Below the pieces are notes generated by a model. It searched no databases and had not been told where the DNA came from. It saw only the letters and a list, made by a program, of their open reading frames with translations. Of a stretch of 64,000 nucleotides of DNA, positions 7,183 through 32,765 are shown piece after piece (the first letter of the stretch is position 1; each line of letters opens with the position of its first letter). The stretch lies in assembly GCF_015709225.1 (NCBI RefSeq), contig NZ_JADNRS010000029.1, forward strand, positions 62,001 through 126,000, written 5' to 3'. The position numbers and the translations under genes are program-made. This stretch comes from Acholeplasma laidlawii (GTDB lineage Bacteria; Bacillota_I; Bacilli_A; Acholeplasmatales; Acholeplasmataceae).

Positions 7183-8412
7183 ATGTATATAAATTTGGGA
7201 TACTTACGAGGGCAGATAAGACTACGAAACCCAGAGATAACAAACAATAATGACAACATAGGTTCTATGTTAAAACACCACCGGTTAAAACTTAATTTGA
7301 CGCTTGAAGATAGTTCCGATGGTATTTGTAGTGTGAGTTATTTATCTAAAATAGAAAACAGTCTAATTAGACCAAGTGAAAAATACATACTACAACTTGA
7401 AGAAAGATATAATACTAAATTCTTTAACGTAGGCAATCAACAAAATGAGTTACTACATCAACTCATAGAAAATATATTCCATAATCAAGAGGAAGTCATA
7501 GATGAAAGATTATTTACGGAAGATAACTATCAATCTAAATTAAACAAAACAGGTTATTTGATCAGTCAAAATAAATTTTTAGAAGCTAAAATAAACCACC
7601 AAGAACTTAATCCTTATATTAAAAATTTAAATGGTATTGAACTCAAATTTTATATATTTCTAACATCTAAACTACTTAGTTTTGAAGGTAGACTAAAGGA
7701 TGCTTTTTCTGTATTAAATATAGAAACAAATCATTATCAACTACTACACCTAGATATCTTAATAGCATGTGAAAGAATTTATCTTGCGACTAAAATGAAT
7801 CATCATCCATATATCGTGCTTACCTATGAATCATTAATTGATCAATGTATAGAAAATGAATTTTATCATAAAGTACATGACCTAAAATATTACTATCTAA
7901 CATACATGGTTCAATTCATTAATGAACAGATTCTTAATGAATTATTGGATAAATCCAAAAACCTTAAACCTTATCAAAAAGCGTTTGTAAAATCTAAATA
8001 TCACTTTATCAATATGGACTATGAACTAGCTATAGAAACACTTAATAGTGAACCTCTAATCAGCTTAGAGGCACATGAATTAAAACTTCTTATTCTAAAC
8101 AGAATAAACCAAACTAACGTGATGAAGGATTCACTCAATTCATTCCCTAAATTCGAGAATAAGCAACTTAAACTAATACATACATATTTAGTTCTTAAAT
8201 ATTCTAAAGCGCCTAATATTGAGTCATTAGTTCAATACATACTTACAGAGGTTTTAAAATCAAATGACTTACCAGATGACATCTTATATTTAAACTTTTG
8301 GTACGAAGAAGGGTTACAGTGTTTAAAGAAAGTAGGCTATTATAAAGACGCAACCAAGTTAGGTAGATTAATTTTTAGAAAAATTAAAGATTTAACGACT
8401 ATTTTTGATTAA
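7183..8412 (+). CDS. XRE-family regulator with long helical (TPR-like) C-terminus
   Basis: The 409-residue product has an XRE-type helix-turn-helix at about residues 28-80 (IGSMLKHHRLKLNLTLED, then VSYLSKIENSLIRPSEKYI) followed by some 320 residues rich in paired amphipathic helices and no recognisable enzyme motif. This resembles Rgg/PlcR/PrgX-type (RRNPP) regulators, in which TPR-like repeats bind short peptides. GGAAGG lies 6 bases before the ATG. The 27-residue extension before the helix-turn-helix is unusual for the class. It sits directly upstream of a leader ORF and an ABC exporter pair, so control of the exporter is plausible. The peptide-sensing reading is inference; a plain XRE repressor is possible. 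Confidence 0.7.
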   Translation: MYINLGYLRGQIRLRNPEITNNNDNIGSMLKHHRLKLNLTLEDSSDGICSVSYLSKIENSLIRPSEKYILQLEERYNTKFFNVGNQQNELLHQLIENIFHNQEEVIDERLFTEDNYQSKLNKTGYLISQNKFLEAKINHQELNPYIKNLNGIELKFYIFLTSKLLSFEGRLKDAFSVLNIETNHYQLLHLDILIACERIYLATKMNHHPYIVLTYESLIDQCIENEFYHKVHDLKYYYLTYMVQFINEQILNELLDKSKNLKPYQKAFVKSKYHFINMDYELAIETLNSEPLISLEAHELKLLILNRINQTNVMKDSLNSFPKFENKQLKLIHTYLVLKYSKAPNIESLVQYILTEVLKSNDLPDDILYLNFWYEEGLQCLKKVGYYKDATKLGRLIFRKIKDLTTIFD

Positions 8413-8434
8413 TTAATTAAATAATGTGATACAC

Positions 8435-8455
8435 TATAAATAGTTTAATAAACTA
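8435..8455 (+). promoter_or_regulatory. Promoter -10 and 7-1-7 inverted repeat before the exporter leader
   Basis: TATAAA (8435-8440) is a probable -10. It is followed at once by the perfect palindrome TAGTTTA-A-TAAACTA (8441-8455), which would cover the transcription start. That is a good place for a repressor, most simply the XRE protein encoded just upstream. No clear -35. Confidence 0.45.
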
Positions 8456-8478
8456 AAAAAGATGAGTGGGAGGTTTAC

Positions 8479-8526
8479 ATGGTTATAAAAAAATGTACAC
8501 TATTCATTATAGGTAACAATAAGTAA
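8479..8526 (+). CDS. 15-residue leader peptide of the ABC exporter attenuator
   Basis: ATG at 8479, TAA at 8524-8526, product MVIKKCTLFIIGNNK. The ribosome site GGGAGG is among the strongest in the window and lies 5 bases upstream. Codons 9 to 12 form one arm of the first leader hairpin (8503-8514), so ribosome position on this ORF should decide which downstream hairpins form. This is the role of the B. subtilis bmrB leader before the BmrCD exporter. The short hydrophobic peptide with a KK start could alternatively be a signalling peptide for the adjacent regulator, but its overlap with the pairing segments favours a leader role. Confidence 0.65.
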   Translation: MVIKKCTLFIIGNNK

Positions 8527-8637
8527 TTTATTTGTAGGACTTATAATGAAGGCTTATTTATTTATCAAATACCCTTCATTCAGATATAAAAGCTTTTTTT
8601 ATATGTATCTTTAAGAGGGGAAACCCTCTTTTTATTA
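8503..8637 (+). promoter_or_regulatory. Four-segment transcription attenuator of the ABC exporter operon
   Basis: Two exclusive sets of pairs are visible. ON set: A (8503-8514, inside the leader ORF) pairs with B (8539-8550) over 12 bp with one G-U, and C (CCCTTC, 8572-8577) pairs with the terminator left arm D (GAGGGG, 8615-8620) with one G-U. OFF set: B (AATGAAGG, 8545-8552) pairs with C (CCTTCATT, 8573-8580), leaving D free to form the terminator (8613-8619 with 8624-8630). A ribosome finishing the leader covers A and gives the OFF set; one stalled early gives the ON set. An extra hairpin (8582-8610) lies between C and D. A 22-codon ORF (8546-8614) with a weak ribosome site overlaps the region and may be incidental. 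Confidence 0.7.
8613..8637 (+). terminator. Intrinsic terminator of the attenuator
   Basis: AAGAGGG (8613-8619), GAAA tetraloop (8620-8623), CCCTCTT (8624-8630), then TTTATTA. It lies 32 bases before the first exporter gene. Confidence 0.85.
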
Positions 8638-8668
8638 TCTAAAAAACACGACGAACAAGGAGAACATC

Positions 8669-10498
8669 ATGAAATTTAAATCCCTTATGAAACTAGCCAA
8701 AGGACACTTGTGGGGCTATATTATCTTAATTATATTAACGATATTCCATCGCTTCTCATACTCCTATGTGCCTTTATTCACTCAATATATTATTCGTACT
8801 TTAACACTTCGTTTAAGTACTGACCCATTACCACCTGATTTACAAACGGTGAATTTACCATCATTTGTAGTAAACTTCTTTGAATCTGGTGAAACGATTT
8901 TAATGATCGTGTTTTATGTTGCGATTACACTAGTTTTCTATCAAGCATTTAGATACTTGATGATGTATTTTGAATTAAGTTTACGTGGTCGTATTCAAGA
9001 AAGTATTTCTAAAAAATTACGTAATAGATTATATGATCACATTCAAAACTTAAGTTATAAATATCACAATAATGCAGATAGTGGTGACTTAATACAAAGA
9101 GTTACATCAGACGTTGAAACTACAACAGGTTTTGTTGTATTACAGTTTATGCAACTCATTGGACTATTCGCATCACTATTTAGTGGTGTATTCCAAATGT
9201 ATCATATTAATACCACCATTATGTGGGTGTGTTTAGCAGTTATTCCTGTTTATGCCATCTCATCTATTTTCTACTTTACGAGAATTGAAAAAATATTTGA
9301 AAAAGTTGAACATGATGAATCAGAGATGATGACAGTCATTCAAGAAAACGTTAGTGCTTCTAAAGTTGTTAAAGCATTTGCTAATGAACCATTTGAATTA
9401 GAAAAAATGGAAAAGAAGAATAAGCAATACACCAACAGCAATATCCGTGCAAACAAAGTAGTAGCGATATATTGGGGAAGTATGGACTTTATCTCAATGG
9501 CACAATATGCACTTGTTACTGTATTAGCAATCCACTTTGTAAGAACTGGTGAAATGGATGGTGCAAGTTTTGCTGCATCATTAATGCTTATTGGCTTATT
9601 AGTATGGCCAATCCGTGGTCTGGGTCGATTAATTAATGAATTTACTAAAGCTTTTGTTGCAATTGGCCGTATCAATCATATATTTGAAGAAAAAACGGAA
9701 TATGAACAAGACGGTACTTTAGAACCAGAAATTAAAGGTCATATTATCTTTAATGATGTAAGTTTTAAATTTGAAGACGATACTAACTATCTATTAAAAA
9801 ATATTTCATTTGAAATTAAACCAGGTGAAACTGTTGCGATTATAGGAAAAACTGGTAGCGGTAAAACAACAGTAATTAACTTGTTAATGCGTATGTATGA
9901 ATATGAAGGGTCCATCACAATCGATGGTGTTGAGTTAAGAGATATTAAAAAACAACACATGAGAAAATCAATTGGTGCAGTGCTTCAAGATCCATTCCTC
10001 TATTCTAGAACGGTATATGAAAATATATCGATTACTAACAAAACAGCAAGTAAAGATAAAATTATTACAGCAGCACAAACAGCAGCACTTCAAAATGATA
10101 TTCACACCTTTAAAAACGGTTATGAAACGATGGTTGGAGAAAAAGGTACTACCCTATCTGGTGGACAAAAACAAAGAGTTGCGATTGCGCGTGTACTAGT
10201 AAGTGATAAACCAATCCTTATCTTTGATGACGCACTTTCTGCTGTAGATAACAAAACAGATATGATGATTCGTGGAGCTTTAAGTCAAAAAGAACATCAA
10301 TCAACAAATATCATTATTACACACCGTATCACTACAGCCAAAGAAGCGCATAAGATTATAGTCATTAATAATGGACAAATTGAAGACATCGGTACACATA
10401 AAGAACTCGCACATAAAGATGGTCTTTATAATAAACTATGGGGTATTCAAGGTAAACTTGAACAAGAATTCCTAGACTTAATTGAGGAGGGTGCTTAA
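8669..10498 (+). CDS. ABC exporter half-transporter with degenerate ATP site (BmrC/LmrC-like)
   Basis: The 609-residue protein has six membrane segments (about residues 15-330) fused to an ATPase domain. The domain has Walker A GKTGSGKTT near residue 393, signature LSGGQKQR, Walker B ILIFDDALSAVD and H-loop ITHR. The catalytic Glu after Walker B is replaced by Asp521, the change found in the non-hydrolysing site of heterodimeric exporters such as TM287/288, LmrCD and BmrCD. It probably pairs with the next protein to export drugs or lipophilic compounds. AAGGAG precedes the ATG. Expression should depend on the attenuator just upstream. The substrate cannot be read from sequence. Confidence 0.9.
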   Translation: MKFKSLMKLAKGHLWGYIILIILTIFHRFSYSYVPLFTQYIIRTLTLRLSTDPLPPDLQTVNLPSFVVNFFESGETILMIVFYVAITLVFYQAFRYLMMYFELSLRGRIQESISKKLRNRLYDHIQNLSYKYHNNADSGDLIQRVTSDVETTTGFVVLQFMQLIGLFASLFSGVFQMYHINTTIMWVCLAVIPVYAISSIFYFTRIEKIFEKVEHDESEMMTVIQENVSASKVVKAFANEPFELEKMEKKNKQYTNSNIRANKVVAIYWGSMDFISMAQYALVTVLAIHFVRTGEMDGASFAASLMLIGLLVWPIRGLGRLINEFTKAFVAIGRINHIFEEKTEYEQDGTLEPEIKGHIIFNDVSFKFEDDTNYLLKNISFEIKPGETVAIIGKTGSGKTTVINLLMRMYEYEGSITIDGVELRDIKKQHMRKSIGAVLQDPFLYSRTVYENISITNKTASKDKIITAAQTAALQNDIHTFKNGYETMVGEKGTTLSGGQKQRVAIARVLVSDKPILIFDDALSAVDNKTDMMIRGALSQKEHQSTNIIITHRITTAKEAHKIIVINNGQIEDIGTHKELAHKDGLYNKLWGIQGKLEQEFLDLIEEGA

Positions 10499-10499
10499 G

Positions 10500-12338
10500 A
10501 TGCAACATCAAGAACAAGAAAACGAAATTAAAAAAGTATCACTTCCAGTTTGGGGTAGATTATTCAAAATCATATTAAAAGATAAACGTAGTTTTATCAT
10601 CATGATTTCTATTGGTGTATTTGTTGCACTTTTAGATGCACTGACTGTAGTCATTCAACAATATGCACTAGATACATTTATTGAAAAAGGAGATTATACA
10701 TTCTTTACTGAGTATACAATTCTAAATATCATGGTTGCAATTGGATTTGGAATTGGGATTTGGGGCTTTATCTACCAAAGTGGAAAAATTGAGGCTAATG
10801 TCAATTACCTATTAAGAAAAGAAGCATTTAGAACACTTCAAAGATTACCATTTTCATACTATGATAAAACCCCACAAGGTTGGATCATGGCACGTATGAC
10901 AAGTGACTCGAAAAGGCTTGCTAATATCATTTCATGGGGTATAGTTGATGTCATTTGGTCACTACTACTCATGATATTTACGCTAACTATTCTTTATTTT
11001 TATTACTGGAGATTAGCAATTATTGTGACACTTGCAATACCAATGATGTTCTTGGTTACATTGCTTTTTAGAAAACGTGTATTAAAAAGACACCGTCAAG
11101 CAAGACACTATAACTCTGAGATTACTGCAAAGTATTCCGAAAGTTTTCATGGTGCAAAAACATCTAAATCACTTGTGATTGAAGATGAAAACCTAAACGA
11201 ATTTAAGCAGACGACGCATAAAATGTATAGGGCTAGTGTTAAGGCTCAAAGTTTATCAGCGATGTATTCTTCTGTATTATTGCTTGCTTGTTATATCTTT
11301 GTAGCGATTGTAATGTATACCGGTTCAAGCTTTACCATCGAAGGTGCAATCACCATCGGGGTAGTTTACTTATTCATTAGATCAACAGTGAGTTTCTTTG
11401 ATCCAATTATTAACTTATCTAACTTTATTTCCCAACTCCAACAAGCACAAGCCAGTGCAGAACGTATCTTAGAACTTATTATGACTGAATCTCAAATTAA
11501 AGACAGTGATGAAGTCGTATCTAAATACGGGGACTGGTTTAATAAGAAAAAAGAAAATTGGGAACCTCTAAATGGTCATATTGAATTTAAGAATGTTACA
11601 TTCTCATACAATGAAAATGAAATCATCTTAGACAACTTTAATATAAACATTAAAGCGGGTATGAGTGTTGCATTAGTTGGACATACTGGTAGTGGTAAGA
11701 CAACCATTGTAAACTTAATCTCAAGATTTTATGAACCAACTCAAGGTCAAATCTTATTAGATGGCGTAGACTATAAAGATAGAAGTATTTCATGGTTACA
11801 TGAAAAATTAGGTTATGTATTACAATCACCACATTTATTTTCAACAACTATCCTAGAAAATATCCGTTATGGTAGGTTAGATGCAACAGATGAAGAAGTC
11901 ATTGAAGCCTCTAAAGCAATCGGATTACATCCGTTTGTAGAAAAATTAGAAAATGGCTACCAAACACATGTAGGTGAAGGTGGTGGCTTGCTTTCTATGG
12001 GACAAAAACAACTTATCTCGTTTGCTAGAGCAATCCTTGCAGAACCAAGTATCTTAATTCTAGATGAAGCTACTTCATCGATTGATAGTGAAGCAGAATC
12101 ATTAATTCAAGATGCTACTAAGAAATTATTAAATGGGCGTACCAGTTTAATCGTTGCTCATAGATTATCAACGATTGTAGACTCCGATTTAATTGTCATG
12201 TTAGATCAAGGTAAGATTACCGAACAAGGTACTCACCATGAACTGTTATTAAAACAAGGTGCTTATTACGATCTTTATAGAAATCAATTCTTAGAAGAAA
12301 AATCAAAAGTTTATGAAGCTGAAATGAATAAACTATAA
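10500..12338 (+). CDS. ABC exporter half-transporter with consensus Walker B (BmrD/LmrD-like)
   Basis: Second half of the exporter: six membrane segments, then Walker A GHTGSGKTT, signature LSMGQ (residues 498-502, Met for the usual Gly), Walker B ILILDEATSSID with catalytic Glu523, and H-loop VAHR. The altered signature would face the Asp521 site of the partner, so both defects fall in the same composite ATP site and the other site is canonical. The ATG at 10500, one base after the partner stop and behind GAGGAGGG, is chosen over an in-frame TTG at 10482. Length 612 aa. The one-base gap implies coupled, equimolar synthesis. Confidence 0.9.
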   Translation: MQHQEQENEIKKVSLPVWGRLFKIILKDKRSFIIMISIGVFVALLDALTVVIQQYALDTFIEKGDYTFFTEYTILNIMVAIGFGIGIWGFIYQSGKIEANVNYLLRKEAFRTLQRLPFSYYDKTPQGWIMARMTSDSKRLANIISWGIVDVIWSLLLMIFTLTILYFYYWRLAIIVTLAIPMMFLVTLLFRKRVLKRHRQARHYNSEITAKYSESFHGAKTSKSLVIEDENLNEFKQTTHKMYRASVKAQSLSAMYSSVLLLACYIFVAIVMYTGSSFTIEGAITIGVVYLFIRSTVSFFDPIINLSNFISQLQQAQASAERILELIMTESQIKDSDEVVSKYGDWFNKKKENWEPLNGHIEFKNVTFSYNENEIILDNFNINIKAGMSVALVGHTGSGKTTIVNLISRFYEPTQGQILLDGVDYKDRSISWLHEKLGYVLQSPHLFSTTILENIRYGRLDATDEEVIEASKAIGLHPFVEKLENGYQTHVGEGGGLLSMGQKQLISFARAILAEPSILILDEATSSIDSEAESLIQDATKKLLNGRTSLIVAHRLSTIVDSDLIVMLDQGKITEQGTHHELLLKQGAYYDLYRNQFLEEKSKVYEAEMNKL

Positions 12339-12391: not shown

Positions 12392-14458
12392 ATGTTGTCT
12401 TTTTTTAATCTACTTATGAATATTGCTGTTCTTTGGACCAATGAAGTGATTGTTATACCAATTGGAGAATCACTTGATAAGTATAAGAGCTTTCCCGAGG
12501 CTACCTTATATATAAATGATGAAGTGGTAGAAGATAAATTAATGTTTTATGAATATGAAATCAACTATACAAGCTTTAATGTCATTAGAACACATGTAGT
12601 AGGTAGTTATACGGTTTGGTACCGAGCTCATTTTCCTACCTTAGGTTTTGAAAGCGAGGTAGCTGTTACATTTATTGTCAAAGATACTATTTTACCAACG
12701 ATAACGGGTCCGAAGGATTTTTATGTGGATGTAGGAACAAAATCAATAGATTATAAAACACTTATTAGCTATACAGATAACTATACTGTGGATAAGGATT
12801 TAATTTTAAATATCTATGCTGGTCAAGTGAACTTAAATCAATTAGGTAGTTATCAGGTGACATACAGTGTAAAGGATAAAGCATTTAATGAATCAATTTG
12901 GGTAACAACCATCCATGTAGTAGATAACGTAAAACCCGTTATCAAGCAAAAAGGAAGTATCACAATTTTAATCGGAGATGTCTTAAATTTAGATAAGTTT
13001 TTTACCTTTAGTGATAATTATGATACTGCACTTGAAGTAAGTTATGATGATAAATTCATTCATTATGAAAAGCCTGGAAGTTATCCTTTATCAGTTACAT
13101 TAAAAGATCAATCGGGTAATGAAGTCACTGTCAATGTTCAAGTTGAAGTGGTAGATACAACAAGTCCGGTTATCATTTTAAAAACGAACAATATAAAGGT
13201 GAATTACTTAACTGACCTCACTACAGATTACTTAAGATCCTTTATCATAGATGTTAAGGATAATGTGGATATTTTAAACATAGAAGATGTCTTAATAACA
13301 AGTTATATTGATACACATATACTTGGTAAATATGAAGTGATATATTCCATAAGAGATTCTAATAACTTAATAGGAAAAGCTAATCTCGTTGTTGAGGTCA
13401 TAGACGCTGAAGCACCTAAAGTAAGTATGAAAGAAGATATTTATGTTGATGTTCATAGTTTAGAGCCTTATATTTATGACTACTTAATCATTGAAGATAA
13501 CTACAACAAACTAGAAGATTTAACAATCACTAAAACAGGAAGTATTTCAATGTCAAAGGTGGGTGCTTACAGGGTCATTGTAAAAGTAGTTGATCAAGCA
13601 AAAAATGCGGCCGAGTATCCAGTAATTGTACACGTTATTGACCAACAACAACCTACTTTAAAAGTTCCTAGTGAAATTGTAATAACAAACTTTTTAAGAC
13701 CAAATTATATCGGTATGATAGAAGTAAAAGATAATTATGATAAGGATTTAGTAATTATCATCGAAGACGGTGATATTAATTATAATGAACTTGGTGAACA
13801 CCAAATCATAATACGTGCTATTGATAGTTCTTTAAACGAAACAAAAGAATACATACATATTAAAATCATTGATTTAAGCTATCCTGAAATCATTCTAAAA
13901 ACACATCAAGTATATCTTGCTTATGGTGTAGATAGTGTTGATTATCTATCCTATGTAGAAAGTGTGTTTGACAGTTATGACAAAGATTTATCTATCTTTG
14001 ATATAAGATATAAATCTACTTTGGATTTTAATAAAGTGGGCTTATATCAAGTAATCTATGAGTTATTAGATAAATCGAATAATATTGGTACACAACTACT
14101 TTATATCTATTTAACTGATTTTGAAAAACCAGTGATTGAAGCAACACATATCACCATCAAAAAAGGTGCATACTTTAACTATAAAGAATATGTAACTGCT
14201 TATGATAACTATGATGGTGATATTTCATATCTTGTTAAAATGAATCCCCAATTTGTACCCATCCAACAAGTTGGATATTATGAAATACTATTTTATGTAC
14301 ATGATTCATCTGGAAATTACTCAGAAATTAAAGTCTTACTCACAATTGAAGCGGCAAATGATGTAATGGATTACATATATTATATCGTTGGTGGTGTAAT
14401 TATTTTAGGCAGTATCATAATTTATTACATATACATCAAAAAACATGAAAAAATCTAG
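12392..14458 (+). CDS. Membrane-anchored surface protein of about seven Ig-like repeats
   Basis: The 688-residue product has a hydrophobic N-terminus acting as signal peptide (MLSFFNLLMNIAVLW), then tandem repeats of about 75-85 residues. Each starts with a D-x-x-x-P-x-I motif (DTILPTI, DNVKPVI, DTTSPVI, DAEAPKV, DQQQPTL, DLSYPEI, DFEKPVI) and ends with a G-x-Y-x-V strand, typical of bacterial DUF5011/Ig-like domains. A single transmembrane helix at about 660-683 is followed by a short basic tail. It is presumably exposed on the cell surface with an adhesive or stalk role; no catalytic motif was seen. AGGAGG precedes the ATG. It follows the exporter pair by 53 bases, and a TATAAT at 12372-12377 may be its own -10. 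Confidence 0.75.
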   Translation: MLSFFNLLMNIAVLWTNEVIVIPIGESLDKYKSFPEATLYINDEVVEDKLMFYEYEINYTSFNVIRTHVVGSYTVWYRAHFPTLGFESEVAVTFIVKDTILPTITGPKDFYVDVGTKSIDYKTLISYTDNYTVDKDLILNIYAGQVNLNQLGSYQVTYSVKDKAFNESIWVTTIHVVDNVKPVIKQKGSITILIGDVLNLDKFFTFSDNYDTALEVSYDDKFIHYEKPGSYPLSVTLKDQSGNEVTVNVQVEVVDTTSPVIILKTNNIKVNYLTDLTTDYLRSFIIDVKDNVDILNIEDVLITSYIDTHILGKYEVIYSIRDSNNLIGKANLVVEVIDAEAPKVSMKEDIYVDVHSLEPYIYDYLIIEDNYNKLEDLTITKTGSISMSKVGAYRVIVKVVDQAKNAAEYPVIVHVIDQQQPTLKVPSEIVITNFLRPNYIGMIEVKDNYDKDLVIIIEDGDINYNELGEHQIIIRAIDSSLNETKEYIHIKIIDLSYPEIILKTHQVYLAYGVDSVDYLSYVESVFDSYDKDLSIFDIRYKSTLDFNKVGLYQVIYELLDKSNNIGTQLLYIYLTDFEKPVIEATHITIKKGAYFNYKEYVTAYDNYDGDISYLVKMNPQFVPIQQVGYYEILFYVHDSSGNYSEIKVLLTIEAANDVMDYIYYIVGGVIILGSIIIYYIYIKKHEKI

Positions 14459-31789: not shown

Positions 31790-32530
31790 ATGCGTAGTTC
31801 AAATCCAGTATTTACAAGCTTGGAAAAACAAGCATTTACAGATAACGTAGAAGTTGCAACTAAATCAGGTATTACATTAAAAACGATTACTCTTGTAGTC
31901 ATATCCTTAATCACAGGTTTTGCATCCATCTTCTTAGCACAAGTGATGCCTGAAGGTTTACTATTTGGTATTTTAATTGGTTCAGGAATCTTTGCATTCA
32001 TATCAGTATTACTTGCAATGTTTGTACCTAAACTTGCTGCATCTATGAGTATTTTATATGCAGTACTACAAGGTTTTACATACGGACTTTTAACTTGGGT
32101 ATTAGAAATGTACTTCCCAGGTGTTGCATCGATTGCACTCCTTGGCACAGCACTTGTATTTGGGGTGATGTTCACACTATATAATACAGGGTTATTAAGA
32201 GGGTCTAACCTTTTAAGATCAGTTGTATTTGGTGCATTATTAACTGTATTAGTTGGATCTTTAATCGTCGGTATTGTAGGTTTAGTGAATCCTGAATATA
32301 TTAATGGATTCTTCTCATACGAAGTTACAATAGCAATCAGTTTAATCTTAATCGTTATGGGTGCATTAATGTTAACTCTAGACTTTGATCGTGCTGAAAG
32401 TGTTGTAAGAATGGGACTTCCAAAACACTATGAATGGACCGTTGCTTTAGGTTTTATGGTAACATTAATATGGATATACTATAATATCCTAAGATTAGCA
32501 GTTACAGTTATGGGTAGAAATAATAATTAA
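31790..32530 (+). CDS. Bax inhibitor-1/YccA-like membrane protein
   Basis: The 246-residue protein has about seven hydrophobic helices after a polar N-terminus (MRSSNPVFTSLEKQAF), and ends with FDRAESVVRMGLPKHYEWTVALGFMVTLIWIYYNILRL, the conserved acidic C-terminal segment of the YccA/COG4760 branch of the Bax-inhibitor-1 superfamily. Relatives are pH-sensitive calcium leak channels or modulators of membrane proteases; which applies here is unknown. TATAAT at 31752-31757 and GAGGTG before the ATG support an independent gene. The pheS T-box follows. Confidence 0.83.
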   Translation: MRSSNPVFTSLEKQAFTDNVEVATKSGITLKTITLVVISLITGFASIFLAQVMPEGLLFGILIGSGIFAFISVLLAMFVPKLAASMSILYAVLQGFTYGLLTWVLEMYFPGVASIALLGTALVFGVMFTLYNTGLLRGSNLLRSVVFGALLTVLVGSLIVGIVGLVNPEYINGFFSYEVTIAISLILIVMGALMLTLDFDRAESVVRMGLPKHYEWTVALGFMVTLIWIYYNILRLAVTVMGRNNN

Positions 32531-32561
32531 AACGTTGATATAACAGTAGTAAAGTATATTT

Positions 32562-32765
32562 AATTCTTAACCAGCGATAAAGTGGGATAGTGGAAGCCAC
32601 TTAAGAAATATATATTTGAATTCAGTTATGGAGTGAAGGGGTAAAATCCTTTCCGTAGATCTTACGTTACAAGAAATTAAGTGCCAAGATTTTTCTTGGA
32701 ACTAAGGTGGTACCGCGATTGATCGTCCTTAGCGTATATTTATACGTCTAAGGACTTTTATTTTA
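32562..32765 (+). promoter_or_regulatory. T-box riboswitch (tRNA-Phe specific) controlling pheST
   Basis: The T-box core AAGGTGGTACCGCG lies at 32704-32717. CTAAGG (32702-32707) can pair with CCTTAG (32727-32732) as antiterminator, or that right arm joins the terminator GTCCTTAG (32725-32732) with CTAAGGAC (32748-32755) followed by TTTTATTTT. A TTC (Phe) triplet in TTGAATTCAG at about 32617-32626 is the probable specifier, matching the downstream pheS and pheT. Uncharged tRNA-Phe should therefore increase expression. Stem I boundaries are approximate. Confidence 0.9.

Follow-up and report, generated by a model that had tools for sequence, protein, structure and literature searches.

A putative ribosome-controlled transcription attenuator precedes a heterodimeric ABC exporter operon in Acholeplasma

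The leader of an ABC exporter operon in the genus Acholeplasma probably acts as a ribosome-controlled transcription attenuator. Its five segments can form four overlapping helices, and the predicted outcome is that the exporter is off if the leader is translated and on if it is not. An attenuator of this kind, conserved and genus-specific, is well supported by comparison of sequences. A sequence-only reading of the same DNA had proposed it ahead of a heterodimeric exporter, and the conserved helices, which co-vary by a swap test and by compensatory changes, uphold that proposal. The DNA belongs to an Acholeplasma genome of 1.33 Mb (G000), and the window is the whole stretch of 64,000 nt that was analysed. 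Translation table 11 fits the window genes; an alternative genetic code was considered and rejected. The closest genome to the window, G002, encodes an exporter subunit that is 98% identical.

The exporter is encoded by two overlapping genes on the forward strand. Subunit A (8669-10498) has ABC_membrane and ABC_tran domains, the signature LSGGQ, and ILIFDD at Walker B in place of the catalytic glutamate, which makes this motif degenerate. Subunit B (10482-12338) has the Walker B motif ILILDE and a degenerate signature, LLSMGQ. Judged by these motifs, the Walker B of subunit A and the LLSMGQ mark of subunit B, the exporter is heterodimeric with one degenerate site. By sequence and PDB matches the pair falls into the class of Sav1866, TM287-288, TmrAB and BmrCD, within which BmrCD is not its nearest relative. 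Directly 3' of the exporter genes, at 12392-14458, lies the gene for a protein of 688 aa in which Ig-like surface domains are repeated and a hydrophobic stretch is found close to the C-terminus. Farther along the window, a T-box leader (RF00230, 109 bits) occupies 32526-32733. On the 5' side, also on the forward strand, the exporter adjoins a regulator gene (7183-8412) whose product combines a helix-turn-helix domain (Pfam HTH_3) with TPR-like helices. The AlphaFold model of the regulator (pLDDT 86.9) has NprR as its best PDB match (E 1.7e-4, TMq 0.60); PlcR, Rgg, PrgX and ComR were matched too, more weakly and in part. According to this model, the regulator has the RRNPP pheromone-receptor fold of the NprR/PlcR/Rgg type. 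Its synteny with the exporter extends to several genera of the family, and the literature searched yielded nothing that pairs RRNPP with Mollicutes.

The leader occupies the forward strand between these genes. A promoter region (8413-8457) starts right behind the regulator gene and carries a putative extended -10 element, TGTG-A-TACACT, assigned from the sequences of the genus loci; in A. granularum, A. oculi and UBA4853 it reads TGTGATACAAT. The ribosome binding site GGGAGG (8469-8474) follows, and its GGAGGT is invariant in 7/7 aligned leaders. The leader open reading frame (ORF; 8479-8526) has 15 codons (ATG GTT ATA AAA AAA TGT ACA CTA TTC ATT ATA GGT AAC AAT AAG, then the stop TAA at 8524-8526) and encodes MVIKKCTLFIIGNNK; a similar ORF occurs in six distinct species. 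Segment A (8503-8514, UUCAUUAUAGGU) lies within the ORF at codons 9-12 and pairs over 12 bp, one of them G-U, with positions 8539-8550 (ACUUAUAAUGAA) of segment B (8539-8552). An overlapping part of B (8545-8552, AAUGAAGG) forms 8 bp with positions 8573-8580 (CCUUCAUU) of segment C (8572-8580). C in turn can form 6 bp, including one G-U, between 8572-8577 (CCCUUC) and segment D (8615-8620, GAGGGG), which is situated inside the 5' arm and loop of an intrinsic terminator. This terminator, AAGAGGGGAAACCCUCUU with its U tract (8613-8637; hairpin 8613-8630), begins 86 nt past the end of the leader stop codon and thus lies outside the ORF. Two terminator-like sites were found against 0.4 expected, both being overlapping versions of this hairpin. 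Another hairpin with a U-rich loop (8582-8610) is predicted between C and D in the antiterminated fold, where C:D encloses it, and it recurs at this position in all six species; it may be a pause site or may merely compact the C:D loop. The ribosome site of the exporter, AAGGAG near 8658, lies past the terminator and takes part in none of the leader helices, which places the control at transcription. The region 8410-8670 has no Rfam match at either gathering or permissive thresholds.

The sequence-only reading had described the 15-codon ORF with its strong ribosome site, the pairings A:B, B:C and C:D, and the terminator; each is present where it had been placed. It had also spoken of two exclusive folds. 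The pairings do compete, but their exclusivity is incomplete, since the unconstrained minimum-energy fold of 8447-8668 combines a 7-bp A:B and a shortened B:C with the terminator. The switch must therefore depend on the order of folding and on the ribosome.

The leader architecture is present in 7/8 genomes of the genus, representing six distinct species (the window species, A. granularum, A. oculi, UBA4853, G007 and G001), as the G002 copy is near-identical to that of the window. Co-evolution of the helix arms was assessed by a swap test, in which segments of one species are paired with the partner segments of another over the 720 permutations of the six species. The species are related and the permutation counts serve as guides, not as true probabilities: native A:B reached -14.2 kcal/mol versus -10.4 when swapped (3/720 permutations as good), B:C -9.6 versus -7.2 (24/720), C:D -11.5 versus -10.3 (39/720), and the terminator -13.4 versus -10.5 (2/720). 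Compensatory double changes occur at four positions of A:B among the six species, and position 9 appears as A-U, G-C, G-U and U-A. One such position was found in B:C, where G-C is replaced by A-U in two species, and one in the terminator. C:D reaches through the terminator loop to 8 bp in A. granularum (AUGCCCUU/GAGGGCAU) and to 9 bp in A. oculi (GUUACCCUU/GAGGGUAAC). Because the MAFFT alignment misaligned the 3' half of the leader, misplacing C and D, and because a count of A:B pairs alone in this automatic alignment was not significant (79/500), the arms were placed by hand and then swap-tested. The stronger co-variation results thus refer to hand-placed arms and to only six distinct sequences. 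Chance is a poor source of such a chain. When the leader was randomised with its dinucleotides preserved and the terminator kept, 0/3000 shuffles held A:B, B:C and C:D at equal stability, and the count was again 0/3000 with the limits relaxed by 2-3 kcal/mol. The ORF, the four helices and their co-evolution, the reading frame and the geometry are established by comparison of the genus sequences. Among relatives that keep the exporter, the conservation and co-variation of A to D on which the earlier proposal hinged are found within the genus, by swap test and by compensatory changes alike, which indicates that competing pairings overlapping the ORF have been kept by selection.

The position of the ORF is conserved to a greater extent than its product. 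In all six species it spans 14-18 codons behind the same Shine-Dalgarno sequence, and the UUCAUU of segment A stands 24 nt past the AUG in five species and 27 nt in one, always in frame. The stop codon precedes the C-pairing part of B by 10-21 nt, so a terminating ribosome would cover A and leave that part of B largely free. Outside segment A the peptide sequence is variable, and the C-terminal tail differs between species in length and sequence. Only FI is shared, and it is the A:B pairing that fixes it. The leader peptides MVIKKCTLFIIGNNK, MKSTKNHHFIIDRGIIIT, MLKNTLILFIIGGLN, MLTIKRKLFIMGEDY, MQLIKGRKLFIMSVEEL and MLIIRVKPFIGGNY are free of RLR-type arrest motifs, and at any given early codon the species have no amino acid in common. 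This pattern of a kept frame and position around a variable peptide is what a ribosome sensor that depends on position, not on sequence, would leave.

Folding was computed with a stalled ribosome masked at each codon, counting 15 nt from the P-site codon's first base to the leading edge. In five of the six species (window, A. granularum, UBA4853, G007 and G001), B:C, evaluated immediately before D is made, is less probable when the ribosome stalls at codons 1-4 and becomes highly probable once the stall reaches codons 5-7. This agrees with the earlier suggestion that stalling early in the leader is the ON signal. In the window, stalls at codons 10-15 bring B:C back down to 0.3-0.5. A. oculi has a high B:C for every stall, and B:C is favoured there even with A free. 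For the full-length RNA, the terminator prevails in the equilibrium ensemble of every species, whether or not a ribosome is present, and A:B combined with the terminator exceeds the antiterminated state in stability by about 0-3 kcal/mol. The shift of B:C with stall position favours the attenuator, and the win of the terminator at equilibrium tells against it. Read-through must therefore come from kinetic trapping, that is, from the order of folding. Path estimates put the barrier from A:B + C:D to A:B + terminator at 10.6-16.4 kcal/mol, and, for a ribosome standing at the stop codon, the barrier to conversion of B:C into C:D at 10.5-14.3 kcal/mol; barriers of this size, as path estimates, allow kinetic trapping of both states. 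If A is free, the barrier separating A:B from B:C is only 2.5-9.2 kcal/mol, and the two are near energy balance except in A. oculi. On these computed energies, the free RNA is a partial switch that would be tipped by the ribosome.

What we infer is that the leader is translated and that transcription terminates or reads through in the cell, together with the identity of the inducers and of the exporter substrate. If the leader is translated normally, ribosomes would cover A, B:C would form, and C would be unable to hold D. With D free of C, the terminator would halt transcription before the exporter, giving the OFF state. If ribosomes are held at the first four or so codons, or fail to initiate, A would be exposed and A:B would form; C could then take D as D emerges. 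The C:D antiterminator would have to persist until the polymerase clears the U tract, upon which the exporter operon would be transcribed, giving the ON state.

Several known leaders resemble this arrangement. In trp-type attenuators, coupled translation selects among overlapping hairpins built from four segments, and the leader contains codons for the sensed amino acid. The choice among hairpins by translation is common to both, whereas the Acholeplasma leader has five segments and no codon signature. The bmrB-bmrCD system of Bacillus subtilis shares a leader ORF with alternative RNA folds that govern transcription into a heterodimeric ABC exporter (PMC4191407). It also has a second, protein-based control at the promoter, exerted by AbrB, while here a gene for a regulator of the RRNPP fold is adjacent. 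The differences are considerable: bmrB has 53 codons and contains the terminator within its ORF (PMC4191407), as opposed to 15 codons and an external terminator here, and the Acholeplasma exporter is of the same class as BmrCD, with other members nearer to it. Blocking bmrB translation lowered bmrCD expression and abolished induction (PMC4191407), so that lost leader translation means OFF there, while the fold logic predicts ON here. The rli80-hflXr leader of Listeria monocytogenes is similar in having a 14-codon ORF, an anti-antiterminator, an antiterminator and an intrinsic terminator (PMC6310831). Its ORF overlaps the anti-antiterminator, stalling frees the antiterminator, and mutation of the start codon keeps the gene off (PMC6310831). 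In Acholeplasma the predicted parity is inverted because the segment that the ORF overlaps is the next one upstream, and the RLR arrest motif of rli80 has no counterpart in the leader. Macrolide leaders of the mef(E)L and erm(K) type likewise couple a short leader peptide to transcription attenuation of a resistance operon, but through MTxSMRLR-like arrest peptides (PMC4335068); no common arrest motif exists here. The likeness to bmrB and ermK drawn by the sequence-only reading thus extends to the kind of mechanism, and not to an RLR motif, the place of the terminator or the predicted parity. The attenuator acts, by prediction, like bmrB or the RLR macrolide leaders, yet it is no relative of them.

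Most likely the natural signal is that translation, chiefly in its first steps, is inhibited by a substrate of the exporter. Lincosamides and pleuromutilins may be good candidate inducers. Erythromycin would be a poor one, because the A. laidlawii type strain PG8 is very highly resistant to it, with a reported MIC of 2048 mg/L (PMC8615230). In a resistant swine isolate, reserpine reduced the MIC of lincomycin alone (PMC8615230), a result that would fit export of lincomycin by some ABC exporter and singles out no particular one. The same anatomy could instead report translational status, such as the supply of charged tRNA or the rate of initiation, with the exporter handling a cellular product. 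A leader without a drug-arrest motif such as RLR would suit such a signal. However, the variety of amino acids at the early codons argues against sensing of any single one, and similar leaders before an ABC exporter and a resistance gene answer ribosome-targeting drugs (PMC4191407, PMC6310831). We consider a non-drug signal unlikely.

The leader is found at a single place in each genome that has it, always 5' of the orthologous exporter. When 88 genomes of the family were searched with a covariance model built on A:B, exactly the seven genus loci came up at E <1e-13, and these account for all hits at E <0.01. No further copies appeared in the 88 genomes, as the other hits have E >0.01 and are at chance level. 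Orthologues of the exporter are present across most of the family. Outside the genus, most of those examined have a promoter directly 5' of the start codon or a close upstream gene; the leader is absent from the orthologues examined in other genera, where the regulator is often kept. Within the genus, A. equifetale keeps regulator and exporter with an unrelated terminator, and neither this leader nor such an ORF is found in the upstream region. The exporter tree does not tell a loss from an original absence here. Four further exporter operons examined in the genome of the window have no such leader, and the hairpins near them are far upstream or part of the preceding gene. As far as these sequences go, the leader occurs in one genus only and is not shared by mollicutes at large. 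The sequence-only reading had placed an attenuator in a mollicute; this stands for Acholeplasma, but not as a general mollicute trait, given its absence from A. equifetale and other genera. In the literature searched, no attenuator of such a kind was found in a mollicute, and the main text of a promoter map and regulon study of A. laidlawii makes no mention of attenuation (PMC5138195).

Two other exporter leaders of the family have features of their own. In G020 (L017), a 28-codon ORF, MNKLYTMSASMMQVDLTTFIHNITVSSL, lies about 205 bases before the orthologous exporter start and has a strong terminator, AAAGCCUGUG...CACAGGCUUUUUU, behind it. It has no sequence likeness to the genus leader and is possibly an independent attenuator. 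In A. equifetale (L014 and L041), the terminator 5' of the exporter is AACAUGCAAGGAAGUCAUUCUUUGCAUGUU; its loop contains GGAAGUCAU, a possible pairing partner of the 5' element AUGACUCC.

The neighbouring regulator invites another reading of the short ORF, as the pheromone gene of an adjacent RRNPP-type receptor. The peptide would be exported, perhaps by the exporter itself, and then sensed, leaving the hairpins a secondary or dual role. RRNPP receptor genes often adjoin a very short peptide gene, the modelled regulator has the NprR/PlcR/Rgg/ComR fold, and both the size of the ORF and its hydrophobic core (e.g. LFIIG) fall within the range of known pheromone precursors. Yet residues outside A are not conserved, the peptide ends vary freely, and pairing with B accounts for the shared FI core. 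Nor does a conserved mature peptide accompany the receptor wherever it occurs, as in A. equifetale and other genera the regulator is retained and the stretch from it to the exporter has no such ORF. A pheromone gene is therefore quite improbable. A leader with both purposes, serving as ribosome sensor of an inverted-parity attenuator (untranslated meaning ON) and as precursor of a peptide sensed by the RRNPP-fold regulator, seems more improbable still; if it were true, translation stress and cell-cell signalling would converge on one exporter. That the hairpin is the ordinary terminator of the regulator amid chance inverted repeats, with the exporter promoter behind it, can hardly be credited: the weak promoter-like match at 8611-8638 is missing from the relatives' sequences, the conserved extended -10 precedes the leader and does not follow the terminator, the four helices co-vary, and shuffling never yields the chain.

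If the attenuator works as proposed, a wall-less bacterium with few regulators would sense a block of translation by RNA and respond by turning on an exporter. The exporter would be marked as one that probably serves to remove translation inhibitors. The five-segment parity, in which an untranslated leader means ON, would depart cleanly and testably from bmrB and hflXr. A leader limited to a single genus, set beside a neighbouring regulator that is more widely kept, also offers a case for studying how an attenuator originates.
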